Source of the DNA: Flammulina velutipes
Lineage: Eukaryota; Basidiomycota; Agaricomycetes; Agaricales; Physalacriaceae
DNA length: 64,000 bases
NCBI GenBank assembly: GCA_011800155.1
Contig: JAALGH010000011.1
Coordinates: 1,798,001 to 1,862,000, forward strand
Direction of reading: 5' to 3'
Shown here: one piece after another, positions 5,648-53,645 of the stretch
How the letters are laid out: every line of letters begins with the position of its first letter
Numbering within the stretch: position 1 is the first letter of the stretch
The notes under the pieces: generated by a model
Told to the model about the DNA's origin: nothing
Databases searched by the model: none
The model's input: the letters and a program-made list of their open reading frames with translations, nothing else
Translations under genes and position numbers: made by a program

Positions 5648-5671
5648 CCGAGAGCTGGGGGGCGTTTCCTG

Positions 5672-8485
5672 ATGTACGTACTTCGTTTGAATGAATTATT
5701 CAATACTACCGGGATCACTCGCAATCGCGAGAAAGTCTTGAAGCTATGGGAAACCCTGCGACCAGATATTCAAGGTGGCTTATATCGAGCCAACTTGAAC
5801 CCGGAGACGGCAACCTATAAAAGACTCGTTCAAAAGGCTGAACGTATCGAGATGATCCTCTCTATTGAGGAGAATGCTCGACGTCAGAATCGAGAACAGA
5901 AAACTCGAGACGCACCGTCCCGGGATGAGAAAAGGAAGCAAGGGTTTAGACCTAGCTCCAATTCCAAGCCAAACGTTGCTGGTACATCTCAGCGTAATAC
6001 TAAGCCTGTAGCACCTTCGTTCGCTAGTAGTTCGAAATCGAAACCCTATGGCAAAGACCATCAGCCGAACAAAAACACGAAGCGCCGGGAACTTACGCCA
6101 CAACAGAAGGCTGAGTACCGCGAGCAGGGTCGTTGTTTTGGCTGTGGCGAAACTGGGCACGTTGCTCACGCGTGTCCCAAGGGAAAAGTTGTATCCGGAT
6201 TTGGAAACAAACCACCCAGAATCCAAACAGCGAGCGCTAAGGTGAAGGCCAAAAAGAATATTAGGCCAGACCCTAAAAGCGCTCGGGACGATGGACATGA
6301 TGATATCTGGTCGAACACGATCAACATATCGAACCTCCAAGTCAACGAGGAAAGCTCTCAAGACCCTCCAGACCTATTTAAAGCCCTTTTCGAAACGGGA
6401 ATAGATCTGGATTTGGGCTTGGGAAGTTTCCTGCGTGATTCGCACCAGTCCGATAGCGACGACAGTATGCCACCACTCGATCCGGTTACGGATGACGAAG
6501 ATGAGGGGCTTCCACCTCTGATATGGGGATCAGACTCAGAAGGGTCTGACTCGGAAGAGATGGATCCCGCACCTTTGGAATCGCCATACACGGATACTGA
6601 TTCGTTGGACGAGCCCCCTCCTCTCATCGACATCTCTGAACTGCCAGACTCCGAATCAGATTCTGATGAAGACTGGAGCTCCGATGAATGGGATGGCTCA
6701 CCGAATTTACCACCTCCCACGGGTCCCGTACCTCAGAAGATGAGACCTTATCGGCGAGTTGGTGACGAGCCCCGTTGTGCTAACTGCGGACGCGAGTGCA
6801 CATTACGAAGGAGCCTATACGACCCAGAAGGTCCTGGCTACCATACAATGTGTGAATGCGAGTTCCCAACATTCGGGAAAGGTCACTTACTTTTTCATTG
6901 CTCAGATGGAAAAAGTCAAGAAAAACCCGTTCGACTTCCACCTACAAGGATAGGCGAATTCTGGGGTCACGGTATTGAGTTCGTACTCTCAAGAATGGCG
7001 CCATATCCTGGCGAGACATTATCGCGACGGAAAATTAAAGAACGTGTGATAACCACACAATGTTCTGGAGATTTCTATGTCGTTAGTGATCACCTCTATG
7101 ATCGAGAGGTTCTCTTACCATTAACGGATGCGAAAAATCCTGAATTTGCACTAGTTGAATGGTACGCGCGAGAACGTGCTAGGGATAATAACCTAGACTT
7201 TGATACACTACCCAATCAGTACGAATGGGTAACTACAGGTTGGAACTCATACGCTTGCCTCGGAGAGCTCGAGGAAGACACCGTGGAGGCATTCCTCAAT
7301 ATGCATGCTCCGTGGCTTGGCCTAGGTTTGAAGAAATACAACCGTCTCCTTGAACGCTTCGACGTTCTAGAGTCGTATGCTGCCGATAGCCTAGATATCA
7401 CAGATAACGAGTTAGATGTGCAAGTATTCCTGCCACGAGAACGACTGACGCACCCGCGTTTCGATCTGGCTAGCTGGTATGAGCGAAAGCTCATGAAATA
7501 TAACAAGACGTACTGGGAATTGTGGTCGCTAGACGACGATCCAGTACTGGGATATCTAAACTGGGAAATTAATGATGAACCTGGATATGAAGCCATGTGC
7601 AACGTACAAATGTATCCTGAACTTTGGGACATGGACATGGACGATCCCGATCTCTACCAATACCTGGAAGAAATCAACGAGATGGATTTTCGCGTCGCGG
7701 GAGCTCAAATTCCGAGAGGTAAGCTTCCCGCGATCCAGCGAAATGCCTCTCGCATCAAGACCACAGGTCGACGAGTCCCGCGTCCAGTCATCATTGCTGT
7801 CCGTATCAACGGACAGCCTGCGCGCGCGCTCATCGACACTGGTTCGATGGCCGATATGATCTCTACTACGTTGTTAGATCAATTAAAGCTAAAAAAAGTT
7901 GAACTCACTAACCCTCTACCGTTGCAACTAGCGGTGCAGGGATCTCGATCCAAGATTAACTGGGGCACTCGCGCGCGTCTCCAGTATCAAGGGATCGACG
8001 AAGAACGGTATTTTGACGTAGCCAACTTATCTGGGTACGATTTAATCCTTGGAACACCATGGTTATACCAACACCAGGTCTGCGTTGGTTTTAATGACCC
8101 TAAAGTTGTAATAGGAAGCCAACCTAGCTTACCTATTAGAGACGGCCCTTGGATTGCCGAGGTCGTTACCAATGCTGCGAAACTCGAGGACGAAGCCCAG
8201 ATCGAAGCGGCGCGAAAGGAGATCATCGAGTTTGCACGACCTCTGTTCAAGAAAGCATCGGAGACTCCGCTGCCGCCTCTATGGGCGATTAATCATACTA
8301 TCCCTCTCATCGACGAGAGTAAAATATATCCATGTCGACCAGCCAAATGTCCTGAAAAGTTCAGGGATCAGTGGGCTGAAAAACGTGACGGATATCTGAA
8401 AACGGGACGTTGGAAGGTGAAGGCTACAAGTAATGCCTCACCCATGATGATATTACCCAAGATCGACGATCCAACTCGTATACGC
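5672..8485 (+). CDS. Outer element gag-pol, first half (gag, protease, start of RT)
   Basis: The frame starts mid-gag (NELFNTTGITRNR, LWETLRPDIQ) and carries a CCHC zinc knuckle of form CX2CX4HX4C at about 6133-6174 (CFGCGETGHVAHAC). A long acidic linker follows with an additional Cys-rich stretch near 6775-6900, then an aspartic protease with the D-T-G triad (ALIDTGSMAD, near 7828) and its flap-side LILGTPW near 8050. The reverse transcriptase begins with the family-typical INHTIPL and continues to DDPTRIR, where the inner element interrupts it at 8486. No frameshift or stop lies within the 938 codons, so this half was intact when interrupted. Confidence 0.85.
8482..8485. repeat. Target site duplication ACGC, left copy
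   Basis: ACGC directly precedes the left LTR start (TGATG at 8486) and is repeated directly after the right LTR end (CATCA at 25903). Four base pairs is a usual length for a Ty3/Gypsy-type insertion. The duplication proves that the two LTRs bound a single insertion event. Confidence 0.85.
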
Positions 8486-10224
8486 TGATGCGCATTGTAT
8501 TAATGCAAGTACGAAAGACCCCAAAATTTGCGATTCTAAGAAGCATTCTTAGTGATAGAACGAACCTATGAGTACAAGAACCTCTAGTTACAGACCGAAA
8601 CGCGTATACGATACAGTGTAAGGAGTTTCCGTGGTACGACCGGAAAACTCCTAAGATTCGTCGGAAAAGCGCCACACGCTGAAGGGCGTGTAGGTATAGC
8701 CAAACCACACATGACGATCTTGAATATCATCATCAAAAGTACCCCGATGGAGACATCGTGATCAAATACACTTGAACGCGCGAAACTCCGAAATACTTAA
8801 CGGAATTCGGCGAGTTACCCTTACACAAGGAAACTCTACATAAAGAGACGCAACGCCAGCAAGCAGTTAAACGCTTGCTGGACTAGCAAACCAAATGTTC
8901 GTACTACTCAGACGTCGGGATATTACATAGGAGACTCAGGAGTCAGGGTAACCTTTTAGGCTTTCAAAAGATACTGCTCGATCACCGATCGACTTACTCC
9001 GGTGGACTGTTCCTGATCGATTCTCGGGATCCACAAGTAAATCGTTACAAGGACCTACAATACGAGTACTATCGACAACTCGTAAAGATACAACGATAGC
9101 TTTTCCGGAGTACTACCGGAAAAGTCCGAACACGATACTAAGAACATACTTGCGCGTCCAGTATACCAAACCTAGTCGGTACTACTCGGACTCGTAGTAT
9201 GAAATAAGAATACGAACAAAGGCTAAGAGTTCCTGCTAGACAGGACTCGGCCGCTAATAATAGTGGAAAACGATGAAATAGTGGAGCTTCCAAGCACAAG
9301 GAACAACCTGGCGCCACTGCAAACTCAGTTACGGCGCCACCATTGGTTGGATCCAAAGCAAATAGAAGCCAGAACGAATAGGCAGCAATGCCAAGGGCAC
9401 CATTAGAGGGATATTCCGTACATCCTATCGGAATATTCCCCCGAACCAGCGGACTCGGTATTATATCCTTATTCAGACGTATATAGAAAACACTATAAAG
9501 CTAGCTCGTTTGTACTATTTACAGTAGCTTACGCCCCCCGTATCCGCAGCCCACAAGCCGTATATACTGGAGGAATAGACTCTAAGATTTAGTTAGAAAA
9601 AGAACCACTGTTTAGATAGGTGGAAATAAGAAACAGAACCAAAGATCTAAGAACTCATTGGAGCTACTTCCCATATTAAAGAAGTTGAAGCCAAGTCCTT
9701 TGCGATTCAAACGATCCGAGTTTCCGCGGGAAATTCCATCTAAAGAACCTACCAACTCTGGTTGGAGTCCCAAGTCCCATACAAGTGTGGTTCAGACTGT
9801 GCTAGGCTATCTATTCAGGCCCCGACTAGTTGTTGGAGAGTCCTGATTATACAGATAGATACCAGAGCTCCCGCTCCCTAGTGTGGTTGAAGGTTGTTGG
9901 CCTGGGAAGAGCCTCATTAGGTCTCTTTACACACATCCCAATCGGCCTGTGACTTAGTGGCAAACTAGAACTCAGTTTAAGATCAGATCCCTGTTACCCC
10001 GTCGAACTAGTATAAGCATTTTGAACAGAAGATAGAGAGAAACAGTCCCATAAACAAAGATACAAAGAACAAGAACCCGTCCCATACCACCTATTACAAA
10101 ACGAACGATTGCTACTATAACGTGAAATCCCGCTATAAACCTCGGACTTTCCCGCATCGCACCATTGACTTGTTAGTGTGTGTTTTGTGTGTGTTTTTGT
10201 GGCGTTCTTCTACACTGCACATCA
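8486..10224 (+). repeat. Inner element 5' LTR (1739 bp)
   Basis: It matches 24166-25903 throughout the compared length. The one difference I found is six versus five C at about 9533. Terminal inverted ends are TGATG and CATCA. It contains several hairpins of the form TCCG-spacer-CGGA, at about 8621-8651, 8784-8806, 9099-9124 and 9409-9441. Short open frames inside it have no protein-like features and are identical in both LTRs, so I do not call genes. Confidence 0.93.
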
Positions 10225-10747
10225 TATTTTGGAGCCCACCGCGAGGGGTGATAAATTTGACTTAAACGATCCCTCTTATTGAGGTTCCTTGAGTTACTTC
10301 TACACCTACTTCAAAATTGCACGAAAGCCCAAAGCCAGTAACGCGAACCCCGCGCCTAGCCAAAGCTCAAACGATCAAGAACAAATCAGCCGTAGAGCTA
10401 ACTTGGGTGAAAACTCAAGTGCTCCAGTTGAAAGAGAACTCCGACACGAACGACCGCCTCCAGGCGCCTTATTCGACGGTACTAAAGCTCAACGTTTAAA
10501 ACACGTTCAGTCTCAAAAAGCCCAAACAAATCCTTCACCGGATACAGGCTACCCACCTGGATATATACTATCCACGATCCCTATTTTCCCTAGACTACCT
10601 CGGATTATTCCGAGTCCTAGTCCTTTACTGACTTTAACCCCCTCTCCCAACGAACTCCACCAGTTCGATAACCTATTCCCAGTCACTCCGCATCCCTTTC
10701 TTGAACGATTAAGACAGTCGATTCCCCTTGGAAGACCATTATTCCCA
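10225..10747 (+). promoter_or_regulatory. Inner element leader with primer-binding site at 10230
   Basis: Five bases after the LTR end comes TGGAGCCCACCGCGAGG (10230-10246). It begins with TGG as expected for pairing with the CCA 3' end of a tRNA. I cannot name the tRNA. The rest of the leader is an open frame in phase with gag from about 10289, lacking an ATG, so it is either untranslated or used from a non-AUG start. Confidence 0.65.
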
Positions 10748-12184
10748 ATGTCAGACCAAGGAGACAACGAAGATGGTGCAAGAAGACAGGAAAATCCCGT
10801 GCCTCCAGCGGCAGCTGGTTATGTTAACCAGTTAAGCGCAGAGACACAAGAACAGATAGCTGGGAAACGTATGCCCGTTCCCGGTGCCAAAGATACACCA
10901 AGATTCAAAGGCGATAATATTAGGGACTTCCTAACTAGTTGCGAGTTCTTATTCTACGGCAGGGGCATCATGAGCCCTACAGCCCAAATCGAGATAGCAA
11001 CTTTGTATGTGGGATATGAAATTAGACGCCAATGGGCGGCTTTACCCGAATATTCAGCCGGAGATTGGCAAGCCTTCAAGAACGCAGTACAAAAACTGTA
11101 TAACAAAGGCGACCAAGATAAAGAGTTTACTCTTGAAGAAGTCGAAGAAGTCACTCGCCACTTTCGGGCAAGGCCGATCGCAACTAAGATGAGATTGATG
11201 GAGTTCAGAAGAGAGGTAGTACACAAACTACAGTATCTAATTGATATTGGAGATGTTACTCAAAAGACGGTGTTGAATATGTTACAGTATTGCTTTGCTG
11301 GTCCAGCATGGGCAGCAATATACACCGACTTGCGGGTTTTACCGATCCCACCCAACAATCCTCTTGGACAAAGATGGACCTTAGTTGACGTGGTCAGAGT
11401 AGCTGAAAAATACTTAGAAGAAGTGGAGACGTTCGGAGGAGCCCCTGTAGTTAATGGAGGTGCTACCAACGAACGCGAGTTAGTAACACCCTCCACTGCT
11501 CGAGTAAAGATTGAAGATATGCACGATCAAGTGGCCAGTATCAACTCACTCACGGATACCTTGAAGGCTTTGGAAAAAGCACGACAGGATGAAATGAAAG
11601 AGATGGAGAAAGCCAGACAAGAAGATACTCGGAGGATGATGAACCTCATGGAACGGATGTCAACGGCCAGACAAGTTCAAGTACAGCAGTATCCCGCTCA
11701 ACAAATGGGATACCCACAGTACATACAACAAAGTCAACAAGCGCCATATCCCGTGCAAAACTCGGGATCCTCCGCACCCAAAGGCTTAGTCCCTATGCCG
11801 GCGAACTTCTTACCCCAACGCAGACCAGCTGCTGTGAACGGGAAGTGCTTCTTCTGTGACGAACCCGGACATTTCCTTATGGAATGCCCGGAAAAGAACA
11901 AACTAGAGAAGGAAGGCTGGATTTACAAACCAGCTAACTCGAACTGGTATTTCCTGCGCAATGGAATTTCTCTTACACGAAACAAGAATGGACCTAATCC
12001 GCTCGAGCAAGTGGCAAAGTTCCAGAGGGAATCGGGATCTACTCTACCAGAAACGCCACAGGTGCAAGCATATGAAGGAATCCAACAGGAGGACTTCTTT
12101 GCTCCATCTGGAACGATTGACACATCCATATACCAACAGCAGTCGATGGTCGATCCCGCGTATTCAAGGGAGGATTTCGATTAG
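10748..12184 (+). CDS. Inner element gag (nucleocapsid/capsid), 478 aa
   Basis: ATG at 10748 is the first in-frame ATG. The frame is open another 150 codons upstream, which leaves a non-AUG N-terminal extension possible. The central part (about 10880-11480) has the Trp/aromatic-rich helical pattern of a retrotransposon capsid. A Lys/Glu/Met-rich coiled-coil follows (11560-11670), then a Gln-rich linker, and a CCHC knuckle of form CX2CX4HX4C (CFFCDEPGHFLMEC, about 11848). The stop TAG is at 12182. The protease frame overlaps its last 60-odd bases at -1. No internal break is seen. Confidence 0.82.
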   Translation: MSDQGDNEDGARRQENPVPPAAAGYVNQLSAETQEQIAGKRMPVPGAKDTPRFKGDNIRDFLTSCEFLFYGRGIMSPTAQIEIATLYVGYEIRRQWAALPEYSAGDWQAFKNAVQKLYNKGDQDKEFTLEEVEEVTRHFRARPIATKMRLMEFRREVVHKLQYLIDIGDVTQKTVLNMLQYCFAGPAWAAIYTDLRVLPIPPNNPLGQRWTLVDVVRVAEKYLEEVETFGGAPVVNGGATNERELVTPSTARVKIEDMHDQVASINSLTDTLKALEKARQDEMKEMEKARQEDTRRMMNLMERMSTARQVQVQQYPAQQMGYPQYIQQSQQAPYPVQNSGSSAPKGLVPMPANFLPQRRPAAVNGKCFFCDEPGHFLMECPEKNKLEKEGWIYKPANSNWYFLRNGISLTRNKNGPNPLEQVAKFQRESGSTLPETPQVQAYEGIQQEDFFAPSGTIDTSIYQQQSMVDPAYSREDFD

Positions 12185-13389
12185 GCTCGAGGACGGACGG
12201 AGGTTCGTCTGACATACTGCGACAGCGAACCCTCCCTCCTGAGAGCCAAAATACTCAGCATCGTACAAGAAGTCATAGCGCTATAGAAAAGGAAAAACCA
12301 GAAGAGTCTGAACCAGTTGAACCACAAAAGAAGATACCTCAACCCAGAGGTCTAAGAATGGAAGTAGTGATCCCTACTCGACAGAAACAAGTAAAATTCG
12401 TGGAGCCACCAGTGGCGGAAATAGACGATGAAGAACCTGACTTGAGTGAGATACTCGAGGAGGTACTGGAAGGACCAGAACCCATAGATAGTCGCAAGAC
12501 TGAAGATAAACGGGAAAATCCCGCTAACGCCACGGAAGAAGCCGCAGTAAAGAAGGAAGTAGAAAAACATAAGAGCTACCAACGCATATCAAAGCTAAAG
12601 GATCTCCTTAGTCGGAATCCCGGATGGCGTTCTCTATGGAAGAAACTACTCCCCGAAGAACTGTTAGCGACTAACGAGGCTTGGCAGAAAGACCTGTTAG
12701 AAAACTTAAGAGCAAAGAACGTTAAGGTCAACCAGCAGACAGTTGAATCCGACGAAATCCCGGAATATCACGCAAGTGAAGATCCTATGTACTACTCGAT
12801 TAACTTACAAAATTCGAGTCAGCTACCTCTAGGATCAGTGGTATGCCATGATTTGGTCGAACAACTGTTTAACCATACGGGTTACGCTGGCCCATACCAA
12901 CTACCACGATCAAACGTTGCAGCTGAAAGTGCTGACCTTCGAACCCTATGGCCCACGATCTTTGGGGCCGGCAAGAAGGAAAGTCTACTTGATAGCGGGT
13001 CCCAAATTGTATCGATGTCGTTAAAAGCCGCGCTTGAATTAGGAATCCCATTCGATCCTTCATTCAACATTATTATGGAAAGCACCGACAAAGGACAAAC
13101 CCGCACTGCAGGCTTAGCCAGAAACGTTGCATTTGACTTTGGTGGAATAACGTTCTATCTACAAGTTCATATCATCAGAGACCCTGCATACGAAGTCCTT
13201 TTAGGACGACCCTTTGATGTGATCTCGAGTATCAATACAACCACCCTTAAAGATGGTGCTGTCGTAGCGACTATAACAGATCCCAGCAATGGGAAGAAAA
13301 TCACTTTGCCTACATACAAGAGAGGGCAAATGCCTAGGTATCAGCAACCCGTAGCTATACCGGTTTTTCTGCAACACTCGAGGAATTGA
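12121..13389 (+). CDS. Inner element protease frame (-1 to gag)
   Basis: This frame is -1 relative to gag and opens after a TGA near 12118, overlapping the gag stop, so translation by -1 frameshifting in 12121-12184 is likely. The first ATG in frame is at 12358. An acidic, helical N-terminal half precedes a retroviral-type aspartic protease: catalytic D-S-G in LLDSGSQIVS (about 12989) and the conserved YEVLLGRPFD near 13190. The frame ends at TGA 13387-13389 and is overlapped by the pol frame, again at -1. I did not find a textbook slippery heptamer. A run gttttt at about 13363 lies in the second overlap. Confidence 0.75.
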   Translation, partial: HIHIPTAVDGRSRVFKGGFRLGSRTDGGSSDILRQRTLPPESQNTQHRTRSHSAIEKEKPEESEPVEPQKKIPQPRGLRMEVVIPTRQKQVKFVEPPVAEIDDEEPDLSEILEEVLEGPEPIDSRKTEDKRENPANATEEAAVKKEVEKHKSYQRISKLKDLLSRNPGWRSLWKKLLPEELLATNEAWQKDLLENLRAKNVKVNQQTVESDEIPEYHASEDPMYYSINLQNSSQLPLGSVVCHDLVEQLFNHTGYAGPYQLPRSNVAAESADLRTLWPTIFGAGKKESLLDSGSQIVSMSLKAALELGIPFDPSFNIIMESTDKGQTRTAGLARNVAFDFGGITFYLQVHIIRDPAYEVLLGRPFDVISSINTTTLKDGAVVATITDPSNGKKITLPTYKRGQMPRYQQPVAIPVFLQHSRN

Positions 13390-16345
13390 TCGAGGATCAA
13401 GGAGAGGTTGCTCTAATCATAAGTGATCAAGGGTCTCAGGGAATACATTTGGTGGAAACCTATGTGCCCGGAGATTCCCGGTCAACTTTCACAACCGAAG
13501 CCGTTACGAACCTATACCTAAGAAAATCCACAGAGGGTATTCACAATGCAGTTAAACTCTTGCGCAATGAATATCAATACGAAGAACCGCCTGTAGCATA
13601 CGATAGCACAGGAAGGGAATTTCCGGTGAATCAACGGAAAATTCCACGCAAGAAGATAGCGGGCTTCCATAAACATGGAAACCTGTCTAATACGATAGAA
13701 ACTTGGAGTCAGCCTTTAACAGACGATCAAAAGTATCCTCCAAGTTTTGAACAGGACTTAGCTAGCCATCAGTTGGATACAGCGAATATATTCTACGACG
13801 TTCCCGCAGAACTAAGTAAAGTGTTTAGCAATCTAACGGTTACACTACCTCCTGAAGCATGGGGCTCAGAACAAGTCAAGTTCCTGGAGCAGGTCAAACA
13901 GAAGGCAACTCCTGTACAAGTACTAGCTTCAAAGAAATATAAACCAGTGGCGTTGAAGGTCAAACCACACTTAGGAACCTTACCAGACGAGTTCAGAATT
14001 GTGCGAAACATTGTAGGCGATCCCCTGGAGGGAATGCCTGTATTGAATCCCAATCCACCTAAGTTTCAACCCACCGGGCGATACACGGAAGAACGAAGAG
14101 AACAAGTACAGAAGGACCATACCGGAAATTTCCTATGGCCTCAAGAACGAGATTTGATAGACGACCTCATGTGCAAACAGAATGAAGGCTTTGCATGGGA
14201 AGAATCAGAGAAGGGAAGATTCCGGGAAGACTTCTTCCCGCCAGTAGACATGCCAGTCATACCTCATGTACCATGGGTACTAAGGCCAATCAAGATTCCA
14301 CCGGGAATCTTCAACGAAGTCTGCGCGATAATAAAGAACAAGCTGGACTCCGGCGTGTATGAGCCTTCGAACTCGTCATACAGGTCGCGTTGGTTCTGTG
14401 TAGTTAAGAAAGATGGCAAGAAACTTCGATTGGTCCATAGCTTAGAACCATTGAATGCAGTTACTATTGCGCATTCAGGCTTACCTCCCGCCACCGAAGA
14501 ATTAGCGGAAGCGTTTGCTGGAAGAGCTTGTGGGGGTACCCTAGACTTGTATGTCGGGTACGACGAACGACACTTAGCGGAAAAATCCAGAGACATGACA
14601 ACGTTCTCTACTCCGTATGGGGCATTACGACTCAAGACCTTACCCATGGGTTGGACGAATTCAGTACCCATCTTCCACGAAGATGTTACTCATATTCTCA
14701 AAGACGAAATACCAGCCTTTACTAGGCCTTACATAGACGATGTACCAGTTAGAGGGCCAGCTACTAGGTACCAAGATAAAGATGGCAACTACGAGACAAT
14801 CCGTGAAAATAACGGAATCCGCCGATTCGTATGGGAACATATGATCAACATGAATAGGATCATACAACGCATGAAGTACTCGGGGGGAACCTTTTCTGGG
14901 CATAAAGCTATCATTTGCGCGAACGAAACCGTAGTAGTAGGTCATACCTGTTGCTATGAGGGACGTAAACCGGCAGAAGAACGAGTCAAGGTCATATCAG
15001 ATTGGGTACCTTGTGAATGCTTAAGAGACGTTCGTTCCTTCCTTGGAACCGCAGGCGTTTTCCGAACGTTTGTGAAAGACTACTCTAAGAAAGCACTGGC
15101 AATGACCAGGTTAACAAGAGATGGTGTGTTGTTTCATTGGGGAGAAGAAGAGCAAGCCTCGATGGACTCATTAAAAAGAGCCCTTGAGACAAGTCCCATG
15201 CTGAAGCCCTTGAACTATGATTGGGATACTCCGATTATATTATCGGTGGATACCTCTTATATGGCGGTAGGATTTTATCTTAGTCAAGAAGATCCTGAAG
15301 ACCCTAAGAAACGATACTATGCGAAGTTCCTATCGATTACCTTGGACGAACGTGAGGCTAGATACTCACAATCAAAGAGGGAATTATTCGGACTTCACCG
15401 CGCATTAATGGCGTGCAAGTACTATCTATTAGGTTGTCGAAAGCTGAAGGTAGAAGTCGATGCAAAGTACATTAAGGGAATGCTATCAAACATCGACTCC
15501 CTTACCAACGGGAACCTACAAAGATGGGCAGAAGAGATACTCATGTTCCACTTCACTTTGGTACATGTACCTGGAAAAGTTCATGGTCCGGACGGACTGA
15601 GTCGAAGGGTGCCTGCACCTGAAGACGTTATCATACCCCGTCCTCCAGGGGATGAAGAAGAAGACGAGCTGCCTAGCTTTGAGTATGAAGAACCTAACGA
15701 CTTAGCGGACGAGGACAAGCCTCTCCCCTTCGAGGACTTCAAAGATGCTATAGATACTAAGACAGGTTACCTGCAAGAAGTACGGGAAATTCCCGTAAGT
15801 TTACCGGGAAACGTGGTAAACGACTTCGAACAGACCTCAGAAGAATACCGCGCTAGTCAGCTAGCAGCAATGGCGGTAGAAGACCTTGAGAAATGGGTAG
15901 CAATTGATGAGTTTCCGGACTTAGAAAGATCGAGTAGAGAAGCACTCTGGGAAACTCTCTTGCCACACGTTGAAGCTTGCCTACGCAACAGTGAATATGA
16001 AACCGAAGAACTATCCACCAGACAACTATCAACGTTGAAGGACTGGGCGTCTAAGGATTTCTTCATTGCGGGTGGGAAGTTATACAAGAAGCACAAAGAA
16101 AACAAGCACCGTCGAGTCCTCTTAGTAGGGAAACGGTTGCCAGTAGTGACTATAGTACATGATAAACATGGCCATAAAGGACAATACTCAGTTCGACAAT
16201 TAGTTGGCAAGAGGTTCTGGTGGCCAGGCATGGAAGACGACATGAACTGGTTTGTTAAGACTTGTATTCTTTGCCAAAAACGACAGAAGATTATCATCCA
16301 TAAGGAACCTACGATTACACCAACACCAGGATATTTGAGACTGCT
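13337..16345 (+). CDS. Inner element pol: RT, RNase H, integrase zinc-binding domain
   Basis: This frame is -1 to the protease, open from about 13337, with no ATG needed. RT motifs: DLYVGYDE (first catalytic Asp, about 14548), LPMGWTNSVPIF (about 14641) and YIDDV (about 14731), followed by the long insert (RGPATRYQ...RRFVWEH) known from basidiomycete Gypsy polyproteins. RNase H residues are visible: LSVDTSY, SKRELFGLH, VDAKYI and GPDGLSRR. The integrase HHCC domain follows (HDKHGH ... CILCQKRQ, about 16160-16280). At about 16330 the frame goes out of register with the integrase core. One missing T in the ttt run near 16335 would explain it. Confidence 0.85.
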
Positions 16346-16348
16346 TTT

Positions 16349-16993
16349 GTGGACACATTCCGAATGCCGAAATCAGGCGGGAAAAATCCGAAGATCAAAA
16401 AGTATGACGGCTATAATGCTGTCACAGTGGCTCGATGTGGACTTAGTGGTTGGCCGGAAGCAAGGGCCTTGATCAACGAGAACGCGGATACTCTAGGAGA
16501 CTGGCTCTTTGAAGATATCCTATGTCGTTGGGGATGTATAAAGCAGATCATAACAGATAATGGTCCTGCTATTAAGAAAGCGATGGTTCATATTGAAGCC
16601 AAGTATGGCGTCAAGGGTATCCTCATTACGCCGTACAATAAACAGGCTAATGGGAAGGTCGAACGCGGACATTGGGACATAAGACAATCCTTATTCAAAG
16701 TCTGTAGGGGAAATCCCGAAGAATGGCCGGCATACCTACACGAAGTACTATGGGCAGAACGAATCACTGTTAAACGAACACTTGGACAGTCACCGTTTTA
16801 CGCGGTAACAGGATGTGAACCCATCCTACCGTTAGATATAAACGAAGTGACTTGGTTGGTTGATATTCCGGATTCATTAATGTCGCATTCAGACTTGATA
16901 GCGTTTCGTGCACAACAGCTCATTAAACACAAAGAAGATGTGAAAGCGTATGAAGCAAAGAGTCACAGATGCCAAGATTCGAGCAGCGGCTAA
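16349..16993 (+). pseudogene. Inner element pol, integrase catalytic core (out of frame)
   Basis: It continues the integrase in another frame. The DDE residues are present: VDTFRMP (first Asp), ITDNGPA (second Asp, about 16556) and GKVERGHW (Glu, about 16660), so the catalytic core itself is not damaged. The frame is lost again near 16961: the reading VTDAKIRAAAKF continues one frame over for about 45 bases before the next segment. Each junction is explained by a single missing base. This is either real decay or homopolymer error in the assembly. Confidence 0.75.
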
Positions 16994-17017
16994 GTTCATG
17001 GAAGATCATAAAACAGA

Positions 17018-17329
17018 ATGCCATCTCACAAGTTCAAAACTGGTGAACTGGTATTAGTCCGAAATACTAGGATTGAAGAGGAACTTAATCACAAGTTCAA
17101 AGAACGATTCATGGGTCCATACGCCGTAGTATCGCGTACGACTGGTGGAAACTATGTCCTATGCGAGCTAGATGGATCCTTACTCAAAGACAAGATTGCG
17201 CAGTTTCGGGTTATTCCGTTTTATTCACGGAAAGACCCTAGCTTCTTAGGAGACTTGTTCTTCAAGAGACTACACATGATACGTGGCTCTGTAGGCAAAG
17301 TTATGGACGAATTAAACAAGAAAGCATGA
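17018..17329 (+). pseudogene. Inner element pol, integrase C-terminal (GPY/F-like) domain
   Basis: The segment HKFKTGELVLVRNTRI...FMGPYAVV carries the GPY signature of Gypsy integrase C-termini, then a short basic tail, with a stop (TGA) at 17327-17329. It is in the same frame as the core (16349-16993) but separated from it by a 45-base out-of-frame stretch. A missing A in the gaatg at about 17010 would reconnect it. The pol coding unit ends here and is followed 3 bases later by the first PPT-like box. Confidence 0.75.
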
Positions 17330-17332
17330 GCT

Positions 17333-17368
17333 GATGGTAGGGATACCATCATATAAAGCTTGTGGGAT
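17333..17368 (+). repeat. PPT-like box, copy 1 (after pol)
   Basis: GATGGT/ACCATC hairpin followed by atataaagcttgtggga. It matches the sequence directly before the 3' LTR (24130-24165) at most positions and a shorter version at 20325-20351. In a standard element this is where the polypurine tract and 3' LTR would follow. Confidence 0.7.
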
Positions 17369-17674
17369 ATAGAGGCATTCCCGAATAACGAACGGAATTT
17401 ACCAGGAATTTTCGATTTTACTTAGTACATACAAACGATACGTTCAAGATGTATTATCATTAAGAACAAAGATAGCAGTAACGTTAAAGATATACTGCAT
17501 ACGAACCGTACAAATGATGAATATCTTTCCTTTAGAAAAAGGTACCATTCCGATGCGGGGTTGGGGAAATTCCCCACAATCTAAGATAAGATTCCGAAGA
17601 GCTAGGCCCATCAGAAACGGAATGGCCCTTTCCATTTCGGAGTTGATCGACAGGATCACCGGACCGGGTCCGTG
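17369..17674. other. Spacer upstream of the sense zinc-cluster gene
   Basis: About 300 bases with no coding frame. It includes a perfect palindrome tggggaaattcccca at 17562-17576 and AATTCCG-type words. It is probably the promoter and leader of the gene at 17675, or part of the full-length RNA only. Confidence 0.4.
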
Positions 17675-19926
17675 ATGGTGAACTTAAAGAGAAAATTTGA
17701 GAAAAACGAACTCACTCTTCAACCACCATCGCAGCGACGCGACTCTGCCAAAACGCGACTTAGATCAACGCGACGTCGATTATTTCAAGTACCAATGTCA
17801 ACAACTAGCTTCTTTGAATTGAAAGACGACCCAAGGCGCTCGCATTCGAGCGCCGCCACTTCTCTAAAAATGCGATCAGACGACTTCGCTTTATTCCCGG
17901 CAATTGGCGGACTTTGCCTGTCTGCCACGTTCCGAAGATTACCGAATCTTCTGGACTCAGTTCGAGAAGGCGGCCGGCGAACTCAAGCATTCGGCGGCTA
18001 ACAATAACGTATGGCTGGATCAAGTCCTTACAAGGGCTTGGCAGTTATACGAAGAGTTGCCGGATGCAACGGTAAGATAAAGATCACGTCGGCAGATTCC
18101 GAAAATTTAACGGAATCGAATTAGACAAGTGAAGATGAAAGTGGCGCGAAGGAAAGGTCGAGAAGAAGACTGAAGAGAGAGTCAAGGTAAGTTTCCTTGA
18201 GTCTAACGGGTAAATTCCGGGAAACTCAACGGAAAAACCTTAGACGCCTGAAGGTAAAGGCAAAGAGGTCGACAAGAGTGTCGTCGACGAAAAAGACAAG
18301 TCCGACGACGAAGATGAAGACCAAGAAGAAGATCAAGACCAAAGCCAAGGGAGCAAAGCCAAAGGCAACGTCAAGGTGAGATTTGAAGAGAACCAGATTC
18401 CGGCATATTCAACGGACTTGTTATAGGACTCAAGCGGCGAGAGCTCTGACGACGCAGAGGTCGTCAAGGCTATGGCCGTAGCAAGGACCAGCGAAGCGGA
18501 AGAAGACTCAGGATCCGAGGGTCCTGACGAGGACAAGGTACGATAACGACTTGGTAATAGCAAATTCCGCTAAACTTAACGGAATTTGTAGGATCAAGAG
18601 ATTCAGGAGCAGAGGACGAGCAAAAAAGAAAGCGCTTCCAAAGGGCAAGAGCAAGATGTAAGTAGCTTCAAAAAGGGGTGAAAGCTATATTACAGCTAAT
18701 ACGATCTACGACAGAGCGAGGAAGAGGATTCCGGGAAGCGCAAGGAAAAGTCCGCGCCAACCCGGAAAGGTCTCCAAGTTCAGAGATCCCGCGTCCCCCT
18801 CCCGAAAGACGAAAACCGTGCCAAAGGCTCCAAGTCCAAGGTAGTGGCACCTCGACCAGTTCAAGCTCCCATGCAGATGCCTCCCAATGGCAATGGTTAG
18901 GCCTGCTAGGGCTCCGATGGCTAAGCCGGCCCAAGGTTCCCAGCAGATGCCCCTTCCGCCCATTGCGATGCCTTCGCAAGAAGAAATCAAGGGCTTGGGA
19001 AACCGAAAGCTGTCGAAGCTATCGACAATGGCAGCTCCCGCGGCAACTCCGGTAGAGGACCCGGAGGTGGCTTTATACGAGCGGTGAGCTTTCGCGCCAA
19101 AGCAAGCGAGAATGGAAGATGACTCCGGACAGGAGGTCGTGGATGAAGAAGCACCTTCTCCCAAGAAGAAGGCCAAGACGACGAAGAAGACAACGACGAA
19201 AGCAGTGGGTAAGAAGGTGCTCCAGCAGCCAAACCCAAACCTAGCGTCAAGTCGACTCCGATGTCAAAACCGGACTCGCCCGCGAAAGCCAAAGGAACGA
19301 AGAGGACTCGCGAAGTAGAAGATGGCGACGCAGATGGTAGCAGTGGCGATGATGGCGAGAATGAAGATGAGCAGCACGACGAAGACTTCGCGCCGAACGA
19401 TGAGGACTTCGAGCCCAACAACGACGACTTCCAACCCTCCGACGAACCAACGGACGATTCCGAGGATGGGTCGGAAAGCGAAGGACCTGCGAGAAAGAAG
19501 AAGAAAACGGCAAAGGGAGCTGTAGCCGTGAAGTCGAGCAAGGCCAAGGGCAAAAGAAAGGCGAAGGAACCCATTCCGGAAGATGAACTTTGGAAGTACT
19601 CCCAAGTACTTTGCAAAGAGTGTCTCAAAAGGAGCAAGGAATGCAAGTACGCGACGCCGACGACCAAGTCTTGCATACGCTGTCAAGTCATGAAGCTCAA
19701 ATGCGTCAAGCTAGACCCGGAGTCAGACGTGGTCAAGCGTAGGCCTCAAGCTTTGCTTGAGACCATACAAGATCTTCGACACGACGTAGACCGACTTGTC
19801 GAGCAGAATGGCAGGTTGACTGACGCCGTCAACGACTTACTAAGGCAGTGGGGAGATCCTGCTGCTCTCAAGTACTATGGGTTGGCGTCGGAAAATTCCG
19901 AAGCTGGACCAAGTCGTCGTCGCTAG
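17675..19926 (+). CDS. Element-borne zinc-cluster protein gene (sense, intron-rich, with frame breaks)
   Basis: At least six introns fit: 17789-17879, 18072-18124, 18187-18243, 18376-18426, 18538-18591 and 18658-18714. Most exons are in phase, e.g. 18244-18375, 18427-18537 and 18592-18657, all acidic Lys/Asp/Glu/Ser-rich. The last part (19261-19926) is a long acidic tract, a basic tract, then C-X2-C-X6-C-X9-C-X2-C-X6-C (about 19612-19704). This spacing fits the Zn(II)2Cys6 consensus exactly and is followed by a Leu-rich coiled coil (LLETIQDLRHDVDRLVEQN), as in dimeric fungal regulators. Frame must shift near 18153, 18885 and 19212, so this copy may be broken or the sequence has single-base errors. 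A nuclear DNA-binding role is inferred. Confidence 0.6.
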
Positions 19927-20701
19927 AAGAAAGGGGTTACAAGTGAAAGAGGTCGAAGCCTAGCTCCCTCTAACACTTGTAGTTTCGCATTTTTTGTCTT
20001 GGTTTTCATTGCCGGGTTCTGGTCGGACTTCTTGATATCTTCAGACTTCGTCCCTTCGCGAACTTGTACACATACCTTACGATATTCCTACGAACATGGG
20101 ACTTAGCGGCCTCAGTGCCAAAAATTTACATACAATTTACGATACCGTGAAAAATAGCGAGCACGCTGATTTGACTACAAAATGGTGTGAACTAAGATCA
20201 AAGAAAAGCTTGAAAACCAACAAGAGATACCAAGTCATTGAGACAAGGGATTCTCCGGGTTTTCAAGTGGAAAAACAGACTCTTCTAGGATGAAAGCTTA
20301 GTAGACTAACAAAGATACCAGTATGATAGCATCTAATAAGTCAATGGGAGACGCCATAAATCATGACGATCTCCGGACTTATCAGGAGCGCGAACATTGG
20401 TTATAACTGGAGACTACGCTAAGGCTAGTACGTCTCAAGTTACATAGAAGAACAAGCCAACGAAGGTCTTAAGCCATATATACCTGAGGCTACGAGTACG
20501 AATGCAATAGCATGAAGAATACTCAACTCCGATGAAGATACGGGAAATCCCGCGCCACCATCAATTTGAACCACAGAACGAACTTGGTAACAAGGAAAAG
20601 GGTCTAAATTGAAGGTATAGCGCTACGACATAGGATAACCGACAAACAATATAGACCAAGTATCTAACACCAAGATGATAGACTTTTAACGGAAAATCCG
20701 A
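19927..20701. other. Spacer between sense and antisense modules of the inner element
   Basis: No convincing gene: a 65-codon open frame at 20096 has no family features. It holds the second PPT-like box (20325-20351), a palindromic acgggaaatcccg word near 20541 and aacggaaaatccg near 20688. It probably contains the 3' ends of both the sense zinc-cluster transcript and the antisense transcript of the gene at 20702. Confidence 0.45.
20325..20351 (+). repeat. PPT-like box, copy 2 (after the zinc-cluster gene)
   Basis: gatagcatctaataagtc followed by aatgggagac. It matches the pre-LTR box (aataagtctatgggaga) nearly base for base, with the central part of the hairpin missing. Confidence 0.6.
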
Positions 20702-21868
20702 CTACTGGGTCGGAGGAGTACATTCGACGGCAGGATGACTAGTGGGACAGTGGGTACACATAGTCTGTCCTAGCGTATTGAAGTGGGTCTATCAGAAGAA
20801 AGGTGTTAGAATTATACACTAGACGTCGAACAGAAGACTTACGAAAGATCTGACCACTGGTACTGGAGAACTGATTGGAACAAGTTCAGGCGTTGAGCTA
20901 GATCGCCGTTGAGCAACACAATGGGGCTCTGGTACGAACTCAGTGAAGCGTTCGGCGTGGGGACCAAGTCTGAGGTCACTAGCGTCAACCAACCCAGCCG
21001 GAAAATCGTGTAAAGGCGAATAACCGTTGGTAACGACCCGTTCATACATGATAGGACGAGTATCAAACTCGGGCTGAATGTTGTTAGCGGAAAGATAACG
21101 AGGCCACCAAGCGACCAATTGAACGTCGCTGGCATCCAAACGAGATAGAGGGACAGGGATAGCATCCAAGACCTCAGGATGGGCAAAGATCCCACCCAAA
21201 GAGTCAGGCGCTCCCCTATGATAGCCCAACATTACGCTGGTCTATGGAAAATCCCGAGATTTAGTACGGAAAAAGCGTATAGGTTAAAGAACTCACGATG
21301 AAATCGGCGCTAGCATCCAAGTACAACTCCGTAAAATGCATATGGGGTTGGCGATATACTTTGGAAAGCCATCCTTCGAAGGAAAGACCATCGAGGGTAC
21401 AGTTTCCCGTGCGTCCATGAAAGAAGTTGGACACCAATCGAAGACAGACGATATACAACGAAGCTAAGTTGTAGGCTTGCCCTGTACGAAAGTCGGGATG
21501 TTCGCAATGCCACAAACTAGAAGCGTGTTGCTATCAAGACAGTCAGACCCGCGAAATGTAAGGAAAAATCCGAGACGTACCATTACGCCTAGGGTGAACC
21601 TCAACGTAGGAGCGTCTATCTGACGAGCAGGACCTAAGTGCAAGTCCGCAGCCGCATCGGTATACCGTGCGGTAAGATCCAAGCTATTGAGTGGCGTGGC
21701 CACGATAGGAAAGCCTTGAGCAGTGCGATATAACGATATAGCAACGGCGAGACCAGTCTCAGCCTGCAAAAAGTCCAAGGCCTCCTCGGAAAATCGCTTG
21801 TCCAAACCCGGAATCATGGCGATTTTGAAGTTGGCCCATAGAGGAATCAAAGCGATAGGAGAAGGCAT
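20702..21868 (-). CDS. Antisense gene B of the inner element, 335 aa, CCHC-like tail
   Basis: Reading the minus strand, four exons (21868-21581, 21530-21297, 21241-20843 and 20788-20702) are all in phase 0. They total 336 codons with no break, and introns are 50-55 bp with good donors (GTACGT, GTGAGT, GTAAGT). The ATG at 21868 starts MPSPIALIPLW. The body is a globular-looking protein with Trp/His-rich segments (SLWHCEHPDFR, LVAWWPRYL). The last exon ends in C-X2-C-X3-H-X4-C (CTHCPTSHPAVEC), close to a retroviral zinc knuckle but one residue short, so nucleic-acid binding is suggested. I recognise no wider family. It lies wholly between the two LTRs, opposite to gag-pol. Confidence 0.72.
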
Positions 21869-22309
21869 CTGAGACAGACGAAGACCAAGACATTACAAAA
21901 GTTCAGTCTTATAAACGATGTACAAATCTAATAGGAGGTGTATGATCGACTGGCTAATGGGTCGGGTATTCGTCAAGGCGAAGAAAATAACGAACGTATA
22001 GGCTATAGAAGATTGCCAATGCGGAAAACGAAAATTGTAAACCCCTAAGAACAAGAAAGGAGACCGGCGAAGACTTCATGCGAAATTCCGCTAGGAATCA
22101 CGGAAGTGGCGCACAAGTGTTTTCGGGGTCTAGCTTGAAGTTCAAATCACACGAAGTTTAGGGGACAGTTATATTTGAGTCAATAAGCAATGGCTACAGT
22201 ATCAGAAAGATAAAGATAAAGATAAAGAGCCCCGGAAACACAATAGGTAAACAGTAGTATCACCCGGAAAGAAGGGATGGGCAACTACCTAGTTGTAACA
22301 GGGAAATAT
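21869..22309. other. Spacer between the two antisense genes
   Basis: About 440 bases without a coding frame. It holds gcgaaattccgc...cacggaagtggcgc, one of the element's TCCG/CGGA mini-palindromes (about 22079-22110), and a short taaagataaagataaag run near 22208. It should contain the promoter of antisense gene B and the end of antisense gene A. Confidence 0.45.
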
Positions 22310-23940
22310 CTATTCGAGCATAGACTTGACAGTAGCGATATACAAGTCCTTGGTACGGTTGAACGTCTGGACGTCGCCGTGAATACGATTCAAGAGTCTA
22401 ATCAACTCATTGCGATGCGCCACCTCAGTCGAAACCAGACCAGGTCCGAGTTCAGTCAACTCGTCGGCGGCGAGGAGTCGGTTGACTTGTTTGATAACTC
22501 GAGCAACAGAGCTTCCGTAACTCTGAGCGGTAGCGCCCGCTAAGAAACACGGAAAAATGCGATAAGTACAAGATTAAGATAAGAAGAACTAAACGCACCT
22601 CCAATGAATTGTTCGACAAAGGTGTTGTCAATACGAACGGAGTCAACCTTAAGGCTCTTAAGAGGACGAGGAGATCCATCTTCCGTAGCTTTGCGTTTAG
22701 TGAGCAAAGGAGCAGGTTCCACGAAAGTGACCGTACTTCCTATAACCTCCATGGCCTTCTGGTATGCGCGAGAAGTTATCAGCATACCTGGGATCATCGA
22801 GTAGGGAAGATAAGTTACCACACGGGGGCCTTCGACTTCAGCAGGCTATGAATAAAGGAGAAATGTCTTTAGTTCAAGCCTTAGAAGAAAGAGACAAGTA
22901 CGAACCTGAGAAGGGGGGAAGTCCTTGCGGCGCATTCCATCTCCATCGATAATGGTCAAGTCCTGCAAGGGTTGAGTCAATCTTGCGACGCCTAGAAGGG
23001 AGCAACTGAGCTTACATCTTCATCGTCAGAAAGATCGGATTCAGACCCACCATCGTCCATTTCTGAAGACACCAGACAGTCCGTTTAGTAAAGCGGAAAA
23101 TGCCGGTCAAGAACGAACATACCGATATCCTCAGTAGGAGTGGCGTTGGCAGTATCTCCAACGGCCTCGAGGGCATCGTCGATAACGGCGGCAGACTTAA
23201 CAGTCTTACCAGCCTAAGAAAGTGATACAAGTTAGAAAGACCGAAGAAGTAAGCGGAAAAGTCCATACCTTTTTCGCGGCAGCCCGCATGGCCTTAGCAG
23301 TAAGCTTAGGTGTAGGCGTAGGCTCAGGAGCTGGAGCTGGCGCCTTGACCTTAGGAACTACACGCGAAGCAGCATGAAGGGGGTGGCTCTCGGGATAAGG
23401 CGGTGCGATATAAGCCTTGCCTCGACCCACAGTATTAAGAACTGGAGTGAACATATCCGCAAGGTTGATACGGTGATGAGTTGGGCTAACGCCTAACTCC
23501 AAAAGATAGACCCCAAGGACGTTGCGCAGATTCCAGAAGAAGGAGAAAATCTCGAAGGAAGCCTCCGCGGCGGTGGTTCCCTTCAGAGATTGATTGATGA
23601 GCTAGAAGATAAATAAAGATCTTAGCATGAGACATAGAAAGAAAGCGGAAAGACATACCAGCAACTTGCTAAAGAACTTGTCCACGACGACAATCGGAAT
23701 ATCCCGTGGCGTCGGATTGGCAGACACCGTACGCAACAAGGCCATCACTGGGGCAGTGAGCTGTTCGATGGCGTCAACAATAAGGGAGTTGGTCGAATCC
23801 GGGAGCGAGTAATTAACCAAGAAGTCGTTGATCAACGGGGCAGTAGCAAGGCGATACTGGACGAGCTCCAGCGTAGCAATGGGGGCTTCCGCAGAGATTG
23901 AAGAACCAATGGAGTGCCATTGAGGGATCTTGGGAGGCAT
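22310..23940 (-). CDS. Antisense gene A of the inner element, 428 aa, 7 exons
   Basis: Minus-strand exons are 23940-23659, 23601-23269, 23213-23123, 23062-23016, 22962-22906, 22845-22599 and 22539-22310. They total 1287 bases, exactly 429 codons including TAG, with no internal break. The ATG context is ttactATGCCTCCC. Residues 1-120 are helical and hydrophobic (IVVVDKFFSKLL, FEIFSFFWNLRNVLGVYLLELGV). Then come a Pro/Ala-rich tract (APAPAPEPTPTP), a basic tract, an acidic SDLSDDED segment, and a C-terminal helical domain (RVIKQVNRLLAADEL). I know no family for it. Its intact frame, in a copy whose sense genes are broken, suggests it is under selection or recently active. Most introns contain a TTTTCCG word shared with other parts of the element. 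Confidence 0.75.
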
Positions 23941-24129
23941 AGTAATGAAGGATAAAACGGCGAGCGCCACAGTTTTCAGCCTGCTTTTATAGTAAAGAAA
24001 TATTGGCAATGGAACGTGCAAAGCCGGGAGAATTCCGTTGAAATAAGCGGAATTGTCCTCCTACCTATTGGCCTTTCCAAGAGCCGAGTCCAGGAAGAAT
24101 ATTGAGAGATCCAACGATAGGGGAACCAG

Positions 24130-24165
24130 GATGGTGCGGACACCATCAAATAAGTCTATGGGAGA
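24130..24165 (+). repeat. PPT-like box, copy 3, directly before the 3' LTR
   Basis: GATGGT-gcggac-ACCATC (perfect 6-bp stem) then aaataagtctatgggaga, ending at the LTR start (24166). The purine run atgggaga is in the position of the polypurine tract that primes plus-strand DNA synthesis in LTR elements. Copies occur at 17333 and 20325. Confidence 0.7.
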
Positions 24166-25903
24166 TGATGCGCATTGTATTAATGCAAGTACGAAAGACC
24201 CCAAAATTTGCGATTCTAAGAAGCATTCTTAGTGATAGAACGAACCTATGAGTACAAGAACCTCTAGTTACAGACCGAAACGCGTATACGATACAGTGTA
24301 AGGAGTTTCCGTGGTACGACCGGAAAACTCCTAAGATTCGTCGGAAAAGCGCCACACGCTGAAGGGCGTGTAGGTATAGCCAAACCACACATGACGATCT
24401 TGAATATCATCATCAAAAGTACCCCGATGGAGACATCGTGATCAAATACACTTGAACGCGCGAAACTCCGAAATACTTAACGGAATTCGGCGAGTTACCC
24501 TTACACAAGGAAACTCTACATAAAGAGACGCAACGCCAGCAAGCAGTTAAACGCTTGCTGGACTAGCAAACCAAATGTTCGTACTACTCAGACGTCGGGA
24601 TATTACATAGGAGACTCAGGAGTCAGGGTAACCTTTTAGGCTTTCAAAAGATACTGCTCGATCACCGATCGACTTACTCCGGTGGACTGTTCCTGATCGA
24701 TTCTCGGGATCCACAAGTAAATCGTTACAAGGACCTACAATACGAGTACTATCGACAACTCGTAAAGATACAACGATAGCTTTTCCGGAGTACTACCGGA
24801 AAAGTCCGAACACGATACTAAGAACATACTTGCGCGTCCAGTATACCAAACCTAGTCGGTACTACTCGGACTCGTAGTATGAAATAAGAATACGAACAAA
24901 GGCTAAGAGTTCCTGCTAGACAGGACTCGGCCGCTAATAATAGTGGAAAACGATGAAATAGTGGAGCTTCCAAGCACAAGGAACAACCTGGCGCCACTGC
25001 AAACTCAGTTACGGCGCCACCATTGGTTGGATCCAAAGCAAATAGAAGCCAGAACGAATAGGCAGCAATGCCAAGGGCACCATTAGAGGGATATTCCGTA
25101 CATCCTATCGGAATATTCCCCCGAACCAGCGGACTCGGTATTATATCCTTATTCAGACGTATATAGAAAACACTATAAAGCTAGCTCGTTTGTACTATTT
25201 ACAGTAGCTTACGCCCCCGTATCCGCAGCCCACAAGCCGTATATACTGGAGGAATAGACTCTAAGATTTAGTTAGAAAAAGAACCACTGTTTAGATAGGT
25301 GGAAATAAGAAACAGAACCAAAGATCTAAGAACTCATTGGAGCTACTTCCCATATTAAAGAAGTTGAAGCCAAGTCCTTTGCGATTCAAACGATCCGAGT
25401 TTCCGCGGGAAATTCCATCTAAAGAACCTACCAACTCTGGTTGGAGTCCCAAGTCCCATACAAGTGTGGTTCAGACTGTGCTAGGCTATCTATTCAGGCC
25501 CCGACTAGTTGTTGGAGAGTCCTGATTATACAGATAGATACCAGAGCTCCCGCTCCCTAGTGTGGTTGAAGGTTGTTGGCCTGGGAAGAGCCTCATTAGG
25601 TCTCTTTACACACATCCCAATCGGCCTGTGACTTAGTGGCAAACTAGAACTCAGTTTAAGATCAGATCCCTGTTACCCCGTCGAACTAGTATAAGCATTT
25701 TGAACAGAAGATAGAGAGAAACAGTCCCATAAACAAAGATACAAAGAACAAGAACCCGTCCCATACCACCTATTACAAAACGAACGATTGCTACTATAAC
25801 GTGAAATCCCGCTATAAACCTCGGACTTTCCCGCATCGCACCATTGACTTGTTAGTGTGTGTTTTGTGTGTGTTTTTGTGGCGTTCTTCTACACTGCACA
25901 TCA
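24166..25903 (+). repeat. Inner element 3' LTR (1738 bp)
   Basis: Direct repeat of 8486-10224, starting TGATG and ending CATCA, followed by the second ACGC (25904-25907). It shows one C fewer at about 25214 than the 5' LTR and is otherwise the same where I compared. An open frame runs from within its last 47 bases into the outer pol. Confidence 0.93.
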
Positions 25904-25907
25904 ACGC
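25904..25907. repeat. Target site duplication ACGC, right copy
   Basis: Pairs with 8482-8485. Counting it once, the outer RT codons on both sides join in frame (..TRIR then VVCDFRPRN). Confidence 0.85.
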
Positions 25908-51922: not shown

Positions 51923-52116
51923 CTATGTACTTGCTGCTGTTGGGGACATACCTACTACTACTTAATATAATTCGTACACACTCGCCTCGCTATATTTGGC
52001 GTTGTGTATTGGTACAATGTGTAGGATGAGTTAAGTGACCTTGCTGAGGCTGGAAGCTTGGTTTGGGATCGGAACATAAAGCTGTCCTGACCCTGCTTGA
52101 CTTGCTCGTTCCCGCC

Positions 52117-53576: not shown

Positions 53577-53645
53577 CAGAGGTTCCGGAAATTCTTGCCA
53601 CGCCGTAAAATATCAAGTTCCGTAAATAGTAATTGTGATCAATTC
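53577..53645 (+). repeat. Left terminal inverted repeat (69 bp)
   Basis: Begins CAGAGGTTCCGGAAATTC. It is identical, as reverse complement, to 57008-57076. It contains the internal words ttccggaaatt and gttccgtaaatag, possible transposase sites. Confidence 0.92.

Follow-up and report, generated by a model that had tools for sequence, protein, structure and literature searches.

Sequence-specific self-recognition by transposons has already been described in one plant group of DNA transposons, where it depends on VANC proteins. In the accessible part of a report on these VANDAL elements (PMC5735166), motifs lie in noncoding regions and introns, VANC is more variable than VANA, and another family carries other motifs. 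Fungal Zn2Cys6 homodimers typically read pairs of CGG in inverted, direct or everted orientation, everted in the case of Leu3 (PMC5559640, available part). As far as the available parts of PMC7264820 and PMC11963269 go, plant Gypsy elements with extra open reading frames (ORFs) are the nearest structural relatives of the element analysed here, a Ty3/Gypsy-type long terminal repeat (LTR) retrotransposon of the basidiomycete Flammulina velutipes. It occupies positions 8486-25903 of a 64,000-nucleotide stretch (GCA_011800155.1, contig JAALGH010000011.1, positions 1,798,001 to 1,862,000, forward strand; hereafter the window) and belongs to what we call family 1. A related family 2 is present in the same genome. 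The sequence of this one genome suggests an element able to recognise copies of itself and turn them on.

Central to this reading is a field of CGG pairs locked in their spacing together with a Zn2Cys6/coiled-coil protein encoded by the element itself, a combination present in both families. We consider it probable that the insertion is a young Ty3/Gypsy copy capable of self-recognition, in which the element's own Zn2Cys6 dimer acts on everted sites to activate and/or unsilence family copies. The features that carry this reading are:

8625..25824, unstranded: field of everted CCG-N9/10-CGG sites, 46 with both LTRs included
8628, 8787, 9104, 9415, 12748, 13622, 14800, 17215, 18098, 18216, 18399, 18566, 19048, 19257, 19438, 19459, 20697, 22087, 23080, 24034, 24308, 24467, 24784, 25095: starts of the strict form TCCG-N9/10-CGGA
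18095..18586, unstranded: everted sites in the sense gene, four in all, with introns 1-4 holding one each
17795..19926, forward strand: sense gene, putative Zn2Cys6 and coiled-coil regulator, six exons, interrupted in the window copy
19612..19704, forward strand: Zn2Cys6 motif CX2CX6CX9CX2CX6C; a coiled coil follows, reaching about 19855

The everted sites are far more frequent than expected. TTCCG-N6-16-CGGAA matches the window 14 times against 0.84 expected, a count reached by none of 100 shuffles, and all 14 matches lie inside the element with a spacing of 9 or 10. The strict form TCCG-N9/10-CGGA occurs 24 times inside the element and once outside. No other spacing of everted TCCG/CGGA between 0 and 30 gives more than three matches inside the element, and inverted or direct arrangements give no more than two. 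With one LTR counted, the family 1 element contains 41 CCG-N9/10-CGG sites (shuffle mean 5.0, highest 12 of 300), and 7.7 kb of family 2 contain 32 against 5.0 expected, while the flanks of the element have no excess (1 and 17 against 2.5 and 15.4 expected). When all 64 self-complementary triplets were compared at this spacing, only CCG was enriched (41 versus 4.1 in family 1, 32 versus 3.8 in family 2); the other 63 together were not (515 versus 491 and 214 versus 239). Across the genome, the strict form of family 1 matches 348 times and the reversed pattern 85 times; among the matches listed on contig C3, 13 fall in one 17-kb copy and seven elsewhere. CCCGC-N7-GCGGG has 170 genome-wide matches against 20 for its reversed pattern, and many of the CCCGC-N7-GCGGG matches listed form clusters at elements of family 2; a single exact instance occurs in the one stretch of that family analysed. 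A chance origin of the motif was rejected after comparison with shuffles, other spacings, inverted and direct arrangements, flanks, reversed patterns and other triplets.

Site density per kb is 2.88 in the LTR, 1.97 in gag-pol and 3.22 in the block of additional genes downstream of pol, compared with 0.12 and 0.45 in the flanks. Within this passenger block, 14 sites fall in 2.7 kb of noncoding and eight in 4.1 kb of coding sequence, as counted with a three-exon model of antisense gene B and the window's interrupted sense gene. Half-sites in introns 1-4 of the sense gene differ less between copies than the rest of these introns (0.061 versus 0.134 per position, p = 0.013). The bases flanking the sites differ by family. 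In family 1, AA follows 35 of 82 paired CGGs but only 38 of 309 unpaired ones; in family 2, GT follows 15 of 64 paired CGGs and is not among the six commonest dinucleotides after the 178 unpaired ones. Paired and unpaired CGGs of the same family differ, so we rejected the idea that base composition accounts for the contrast between families.

The candidate reader of these sites is the product of the sense gene. The Zn2Cys6 consensus is CX2CX6CX5-12CX2CX6-8C, and the six-cysteine spacing of both families' proteins, encoded at the same place in each, fits it. The best PDB profile matches of the protein are PPR1 and PUT3, and a protein search (7996 candidates scored) found four close proteins. 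Two scans of viral collections found no relatives. The five introns of the sense gene align across copies with GT..AG ends, except that intron 4 has an extra exon-intron unit in three copies and an alternative donor in two. In the C9 copy the gene reads through, giving 627 amino acids. Of 13 aligned copies, 11 have an open last exon; the two with an interruption are the window copy and C8_2635, whose near-twin on C4 was left out of the alignment. As a separate observation, introns 1-4 (18072-18714) resemble one another (z 2.1-4.0) and intron 5 does not, a likeness partly due to the shared site itself. In most copies, acidic exons with lengths divisible by three alternate with these introns, as if exon-intron units had multiplied.

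The sense gene lies in a cassette that is unusually variable among copies:

17400..20270 (borders approximate), forward strand: hypervariable, mosaic cassette

Here copies are 65-100% identical to the window per 200-bp bin. Identity returns to 90-100% at 20200-20400 and is mostly 96-100% thereafter, with 92-96% in many copies at 22800-23200. In seven copies with an open last exon (21 pairs), synonymous divergence (dS) is 0.12-0.56 over the last exon and 0.08-1.83 over the DNA-binding part, while the ratio of nonsynonymous to synonymous divergence (dN/dS) is 0.02-0.22 over parts of that exon. These values indicate that the sense-gene variants are old alleles under purifying selection. Ten of 78 pairs combine at least three 120-bp windows at no more than 2% divergence with at least three at 12% or more. 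Since low and high divergence occur within the same pairs, an exchange of old alleles is indicated, and hypermutation was rejected as the sole cause of the variability; a raised local mutation rate may still contribute. Family 2 has a similar pattern. Around its antisense gene, nine stretches compared in 300-bp tiles have mean nucleotide identities of 97-99%, with 94% for the lowest pair. The zinc proteins of these elements are less alike: compared with the one on C8, the other eight have 65-88% identity, and the range over 24 places is 50-88%.

Immediately 3' of the cassette is a second copy of the polypurine tract (PPT) sequence that precedes the 3' LTR:

20330..20351, forward strand: internal copy of the pre-LTR PPT sequence (candidate central PPT)
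24144..24165, forward strand: terminal PPT region before the 3' LTR

When the 66 bases preceding the 3' LTR were compared with the internal region, 20330-20351 was the top match outside the terminal place itself (20 of 22 bases, score 34), above the maxima of 40 shuffles (mean 21.9, highest 32). The internal copy is present in 20 of 30 family 1 stretches, the rest of which may end short of it, and is identical in all 20. In family 2, the terminal copy ends at 1025715, before TGAT, and an internal copy lies at 1021975-1021995, between the zinc and antisense genes. Between the families, the internal copies match at 20 of 21 bases; at the one family-specific base, before GGGAGA, the internal and terminal copies agree within each family. 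We infer that the internal copy may work as a second primer site and take part in cassette exchange. A third PPT-like stretch at 17333-17356 was discarded; its match is weak (score 28; shuffle maxima with a mean of 21.9, highest 32) and has no good counterpart in family 2.

The element as a whole has a conventional frame:

8482..8485 and 25904-25907, unstranded: target-site duplication ACGC, seen at both insertion ends
8486..10224, forward strand: 5' LTR, with five everted CCG-N9/10-CGG sites
10283..12184, forward strand: gag-like ORF, with a zinc-knuckle (zf-CCHC) match below the Pfam cut-off
12121..13389, forward strand: aspartic protease ORF, Asp_protease_2 above cut-off
13338..16472, forward strand: pol ORF with reverse transcriptase (weak), RNase H and integrase zinc-binding domain
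16304..17329, forward strand: pol continued in other frames (16304-16993 and 17012-17329); in the window copy this part is probably broken
24166..25903, forward strand: 3' LTR, with five everted CCG-N9/10-CGG sites

An earlier sequence-only reading of the window had proposed a single insertion bounded by near-identical LTRs and ACGC, and this is what we found. The LTRs are 99.94% identical across 1739 columns and run from TG to CA; with a short target duplication and a PPT adjoining the 3' LTR, they mark an LTR retrotransposon. When the element was excised in silico, the joined flanks formed one open frame of another Gypsy pol, so the insertion is clean, recent and nested. In a Pfam scan of gag-pol, protease, RNase H and H2C2 scored above cut-off, and RVT_1 (E-value of 0.0021) and zf-CCHC below it; the order gag, protease, reverse transcriptase, RNase H, integrase is that expected of Ty3/Gypsy. 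The same reading had placed about 6.8 kb of additional sequence after these genes, with one sense zinc-cluster gene and two antisense intron-containing genes. The block (17330-24165) does contain these three spliced genes, and the sense gene is interrupted in the window copy. Since pol is also spread over several frames, this copy is probably defective and not autonomous.

The surrounding Gypsy element (5648-8485, 25908-30383) continues beyond pol in a long ORF tail, and CCG-N9/10-CGG is not enriched in it, the flanks of the insertion having been the control above. Elsewhere in the window, a direct repeat of about 545 bp (52096-52640 and 63154-63696, 85% identical), with a further repeat pair (82.5%) just beyond, is perhaps an older LTR or a duplicated element. 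Inverted repeats of 78 bp (53575-53651 and 57001-57078, 98.7% identical, 3.5 kb apart) are perhaps terminal inverted repeats of a DNA transposon.

The sequence-only reading had recommended searching the genome for further copies with the block between LTRs, and such copies exist. Our searches covered the host genome (38.1 Mb), with the window copy included in the counts of places, which are lower bounds. At least 40 near-full LTR matches were found (the best 40 of 125 candidates), among which nine same-strand pairs are spaced 15.64-15.82 kb from start to start, compared with 15.68 kb in the window. Segment 20800-22900 is complete at at least 18 places with 96-100% identity (best 40 of 46 candidates), and 23100-24165 is complete to within one base at at least 19 places with 95-100% identity. 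For pol (13800-15800; best 40 of 66 candidates), at least 18 places match at 97-100%, and at least 19 further places, which constitute family 2, at 76-77%. The family 2 element on C8 has its own Zn2Cys6 gene and both antisense genes, in the same order as in family 1. Copies lacking 17330-24165, with boundaries of the block unique to this locus, were looked for and not seen; the 6.8-kb block is a property of the family. Two pairs of copies have identical bin-by-bin identity profiles, as if duplicated with their surroundings (C18:1953-9084 with C5:2729168-2736299, and C4:665810-673035 with C8:2635478-2642703).

The two other genes of the block are on the opposite strand:

22310..23940, reverse strand: antisense gene A, 7 exons, 428 amino acids
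20702..21868, reverse strand: antisense gene B, 4 exons (21868-21581, 21530-21297, 21241-20843, 20788-20702), 335 amino acids

In 18 stretches spanning 20600-24165, gene A is intact in 17 copies and gene B is open in 17, one of which, on C1, has a changed last donor. The four-exon model of gene B replaced the three-exon one, whose stop is shared by only seven of 18 copies. Where they align, both proteins are 37-48% identical to their family 2 counterparts, and intron-like interruptions fall at corresponding positions. With B in its three-exon form, Pfam gave no family above cut-off for either protein, and the protein search gave no match. A second, milder allele split lies within gene A, where at 22800-23200 many copies are 92-96% identical to the window and others 97-100%.

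Taken together, the following mechanism may be proposed. Intact copies would make the Zn2Cys6 protein, which would form a homodimer through its coiled coil and bind everted CCG-N9/10-CGG pairs in LTRs, introns, intergenic and coding parts of family copies. The bound protein would then switch on the LTR together with the passenger genes and/or prevent the silencing of family copies, with the antisense proteins as its putative conserved partners. As the regulator gene lies in a cassette beside the internal PPT, old diverged cassettes might be exchanged between co-replicating genomes, which would explain a mosaic, hypervariable regulator in an otherwise almost uniform element. Either promoter activation or removal of silencing may be the main effect; by analogy with VANC, the sites in introns and pol lean towards removal of silencing. 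A tentative extension is that each family has its own site code, read by its own dimer to undo silencing, and that swapped cassettes diverge in nucleotides, and so escape homology-based silencing, while the protein is preserved.

Plain transcriptional feedback would make the protein a Tat-like activator of the LTR and three internal promoters, with no anti-silencing and the other sites as surplus. The five sites per LTR are consistent with this, as are site 24031 close upstream of antisense gene A (start 23940), site 22084 upstream of gene B (start 21868) and sites 17212 and 17377 upstream of the sense gene. However, sites also fill introns and pol, with 14 in gag-pol, beyond the needs of a few promoters, and we regard this explanation as unlikely. 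The passenger genes might also be captured host genes carried as passive cargo, as the sequence-only reading had suggested beside regulation of the element and counter-silencing. They are spliced and cellular-looking, and the cassette end has a weak relative at C3:2717210 (73%). Yet nearly all copies have these genes, which are open, evolve under purifying selection and occupy the same place in two families, and the antisense proteins (B in three-exon form) had no match in the protein search. These observations contradict capture, which we consider extremely improbable, and the site and selection tests leave regulation or counter-silencing as the best interpretation of the passengers. It is improbable, too, that a host Zn2Cys6 factor reads the sites and that the zinc gene of the element has another function. 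Fungal Zn2Cys6 proteins usually target CGG pairs (PMC5559640, available part), but such a protein is encoded by both families, whose site flanks differ. A protein that coats newly reverse-transcribed complementary DNA (cDNA), helping it to enter the nucleus, protecting it or keeping it from integrating into itself, would fit sites across the whole element, coding parts included. Conversely, half-sites are kept in introns, which are absent from spliced RNA (full-length genomic RNA would keep them), and cDNA coating seems very unlikely.

Some observations weigh against self-recognition. Within family 2, site and DNA-binding domain do not change in step. In family 1, the outer flanks of the two arms mirror each other, unlike two independent half-sites (98 versus 79.1, p = 0.001; non-consensus positions only, 28 versus 17.9, p = 0.003), in a test that omits the innermost position, which is shared at spacing 9. 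Strong sites mixed with chance ones could produce this mirroring, and so could an RNA stem. Paired arms, complementary by construction, could form hairpins with a 9-10-nucleotide loop in the element RNA, serving packaging, splicing or export, and stem runs in family 2 are longer than expected (0.81 versus 0.45, p = 0.009). On the other hand, mirrored-flank counts in family 2 are at expectation (47 versus 47.3), and sites lie within introns and near the antisense genes. The RNA explanation is weakened because the enrichment is confined to CCG stems, other 5-bp stems having no preference for loop size, and we hold it to be rather improbable. An apparent enrichment of pair-breaking CCC/GGG variants disappeared once overlaps with true sites were removed. 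As the RNA explanation is weakened and not removed, we lowered the probability assigned to self-recognition by the element's own dimer.

How does this element relate to known systems? Among the literature titles and abstracts listed, we found no LTR retrotransposon described with a Zn2Cys6 gene or a field of CGG pairs; this search mostly left out subscription papers and is weak evidence of novelty. Ty1 and lentiviruses have central PPTs, and the element resembles them in its second internal copy of the PPT sequence; its copy differs in bordering a hypervariable gene and is a candidate primer only. A hypervariable cassette beside a duplicated PPT provides a test case for gene exchange among LTR elements. 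With PPR1, PUT3, Leu3 and GAL4, the element's protein shares the six-cysteine pattern, linker, coiled coil and, as predicted targets, CGG pairs, but its domain is C-terminal, it is encoded by a retrotransposon, and its putative targets are concentrated in the element at spacing N9/10. Retand, Grande, RIRE2 and Boty likewise have a long region between pol and the 3' LTR with antisense genes in most copies, and a regulatory role has been suggested for them (PMC7264820, PMC11963269, available parts). They differ in that TRP28 (PF04195) was not found here in a Pfam scan of the antisense proteins (B in three-exon form), and in that this element has a Zn2Cys6 gene in sense orientation, antisense genes with introns and a site field to match.

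The closest parallel in logic is VANC of the Arabidopsis VANDALs. According to the available parts of PMC5735166 and PMC10398659, there too the element-encoded regulator is more variable than the enzyme gene, and a short motif that differs between related families accumulates in the element, including introns of the regulator gene. The element described here likewise encodes a regulator and carries an element-specific repeated motif differing by family, to which that regulator would bind. Pfam scans of the element proteins matched neither DUF1985 nor DUF287, the VANC domains, and its regulator is a Zn2Cys6 protein, so we do not place it in the VANC/VANDAL group. Furthermore, VANDALs are Mutator-like DNA transposons whose motifs, in the accessible text, are tandem repeats in noncoding regions, whereas this is an LTR element with dispersed, partly coding sites; hypomethylation has been demonstrated for VANC, while the effect proposed here is read from sequence. 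The reading yields an explicit and cheap prediction in terms of domain, site, spacing and family-specific flank. If it is true, the element would be a fungal LTR-retrotransposon counterpart of VANC, built from a fungal transcription-factor domain, and transposon self-recognition would seem to be a strategy that arises repeatedly.
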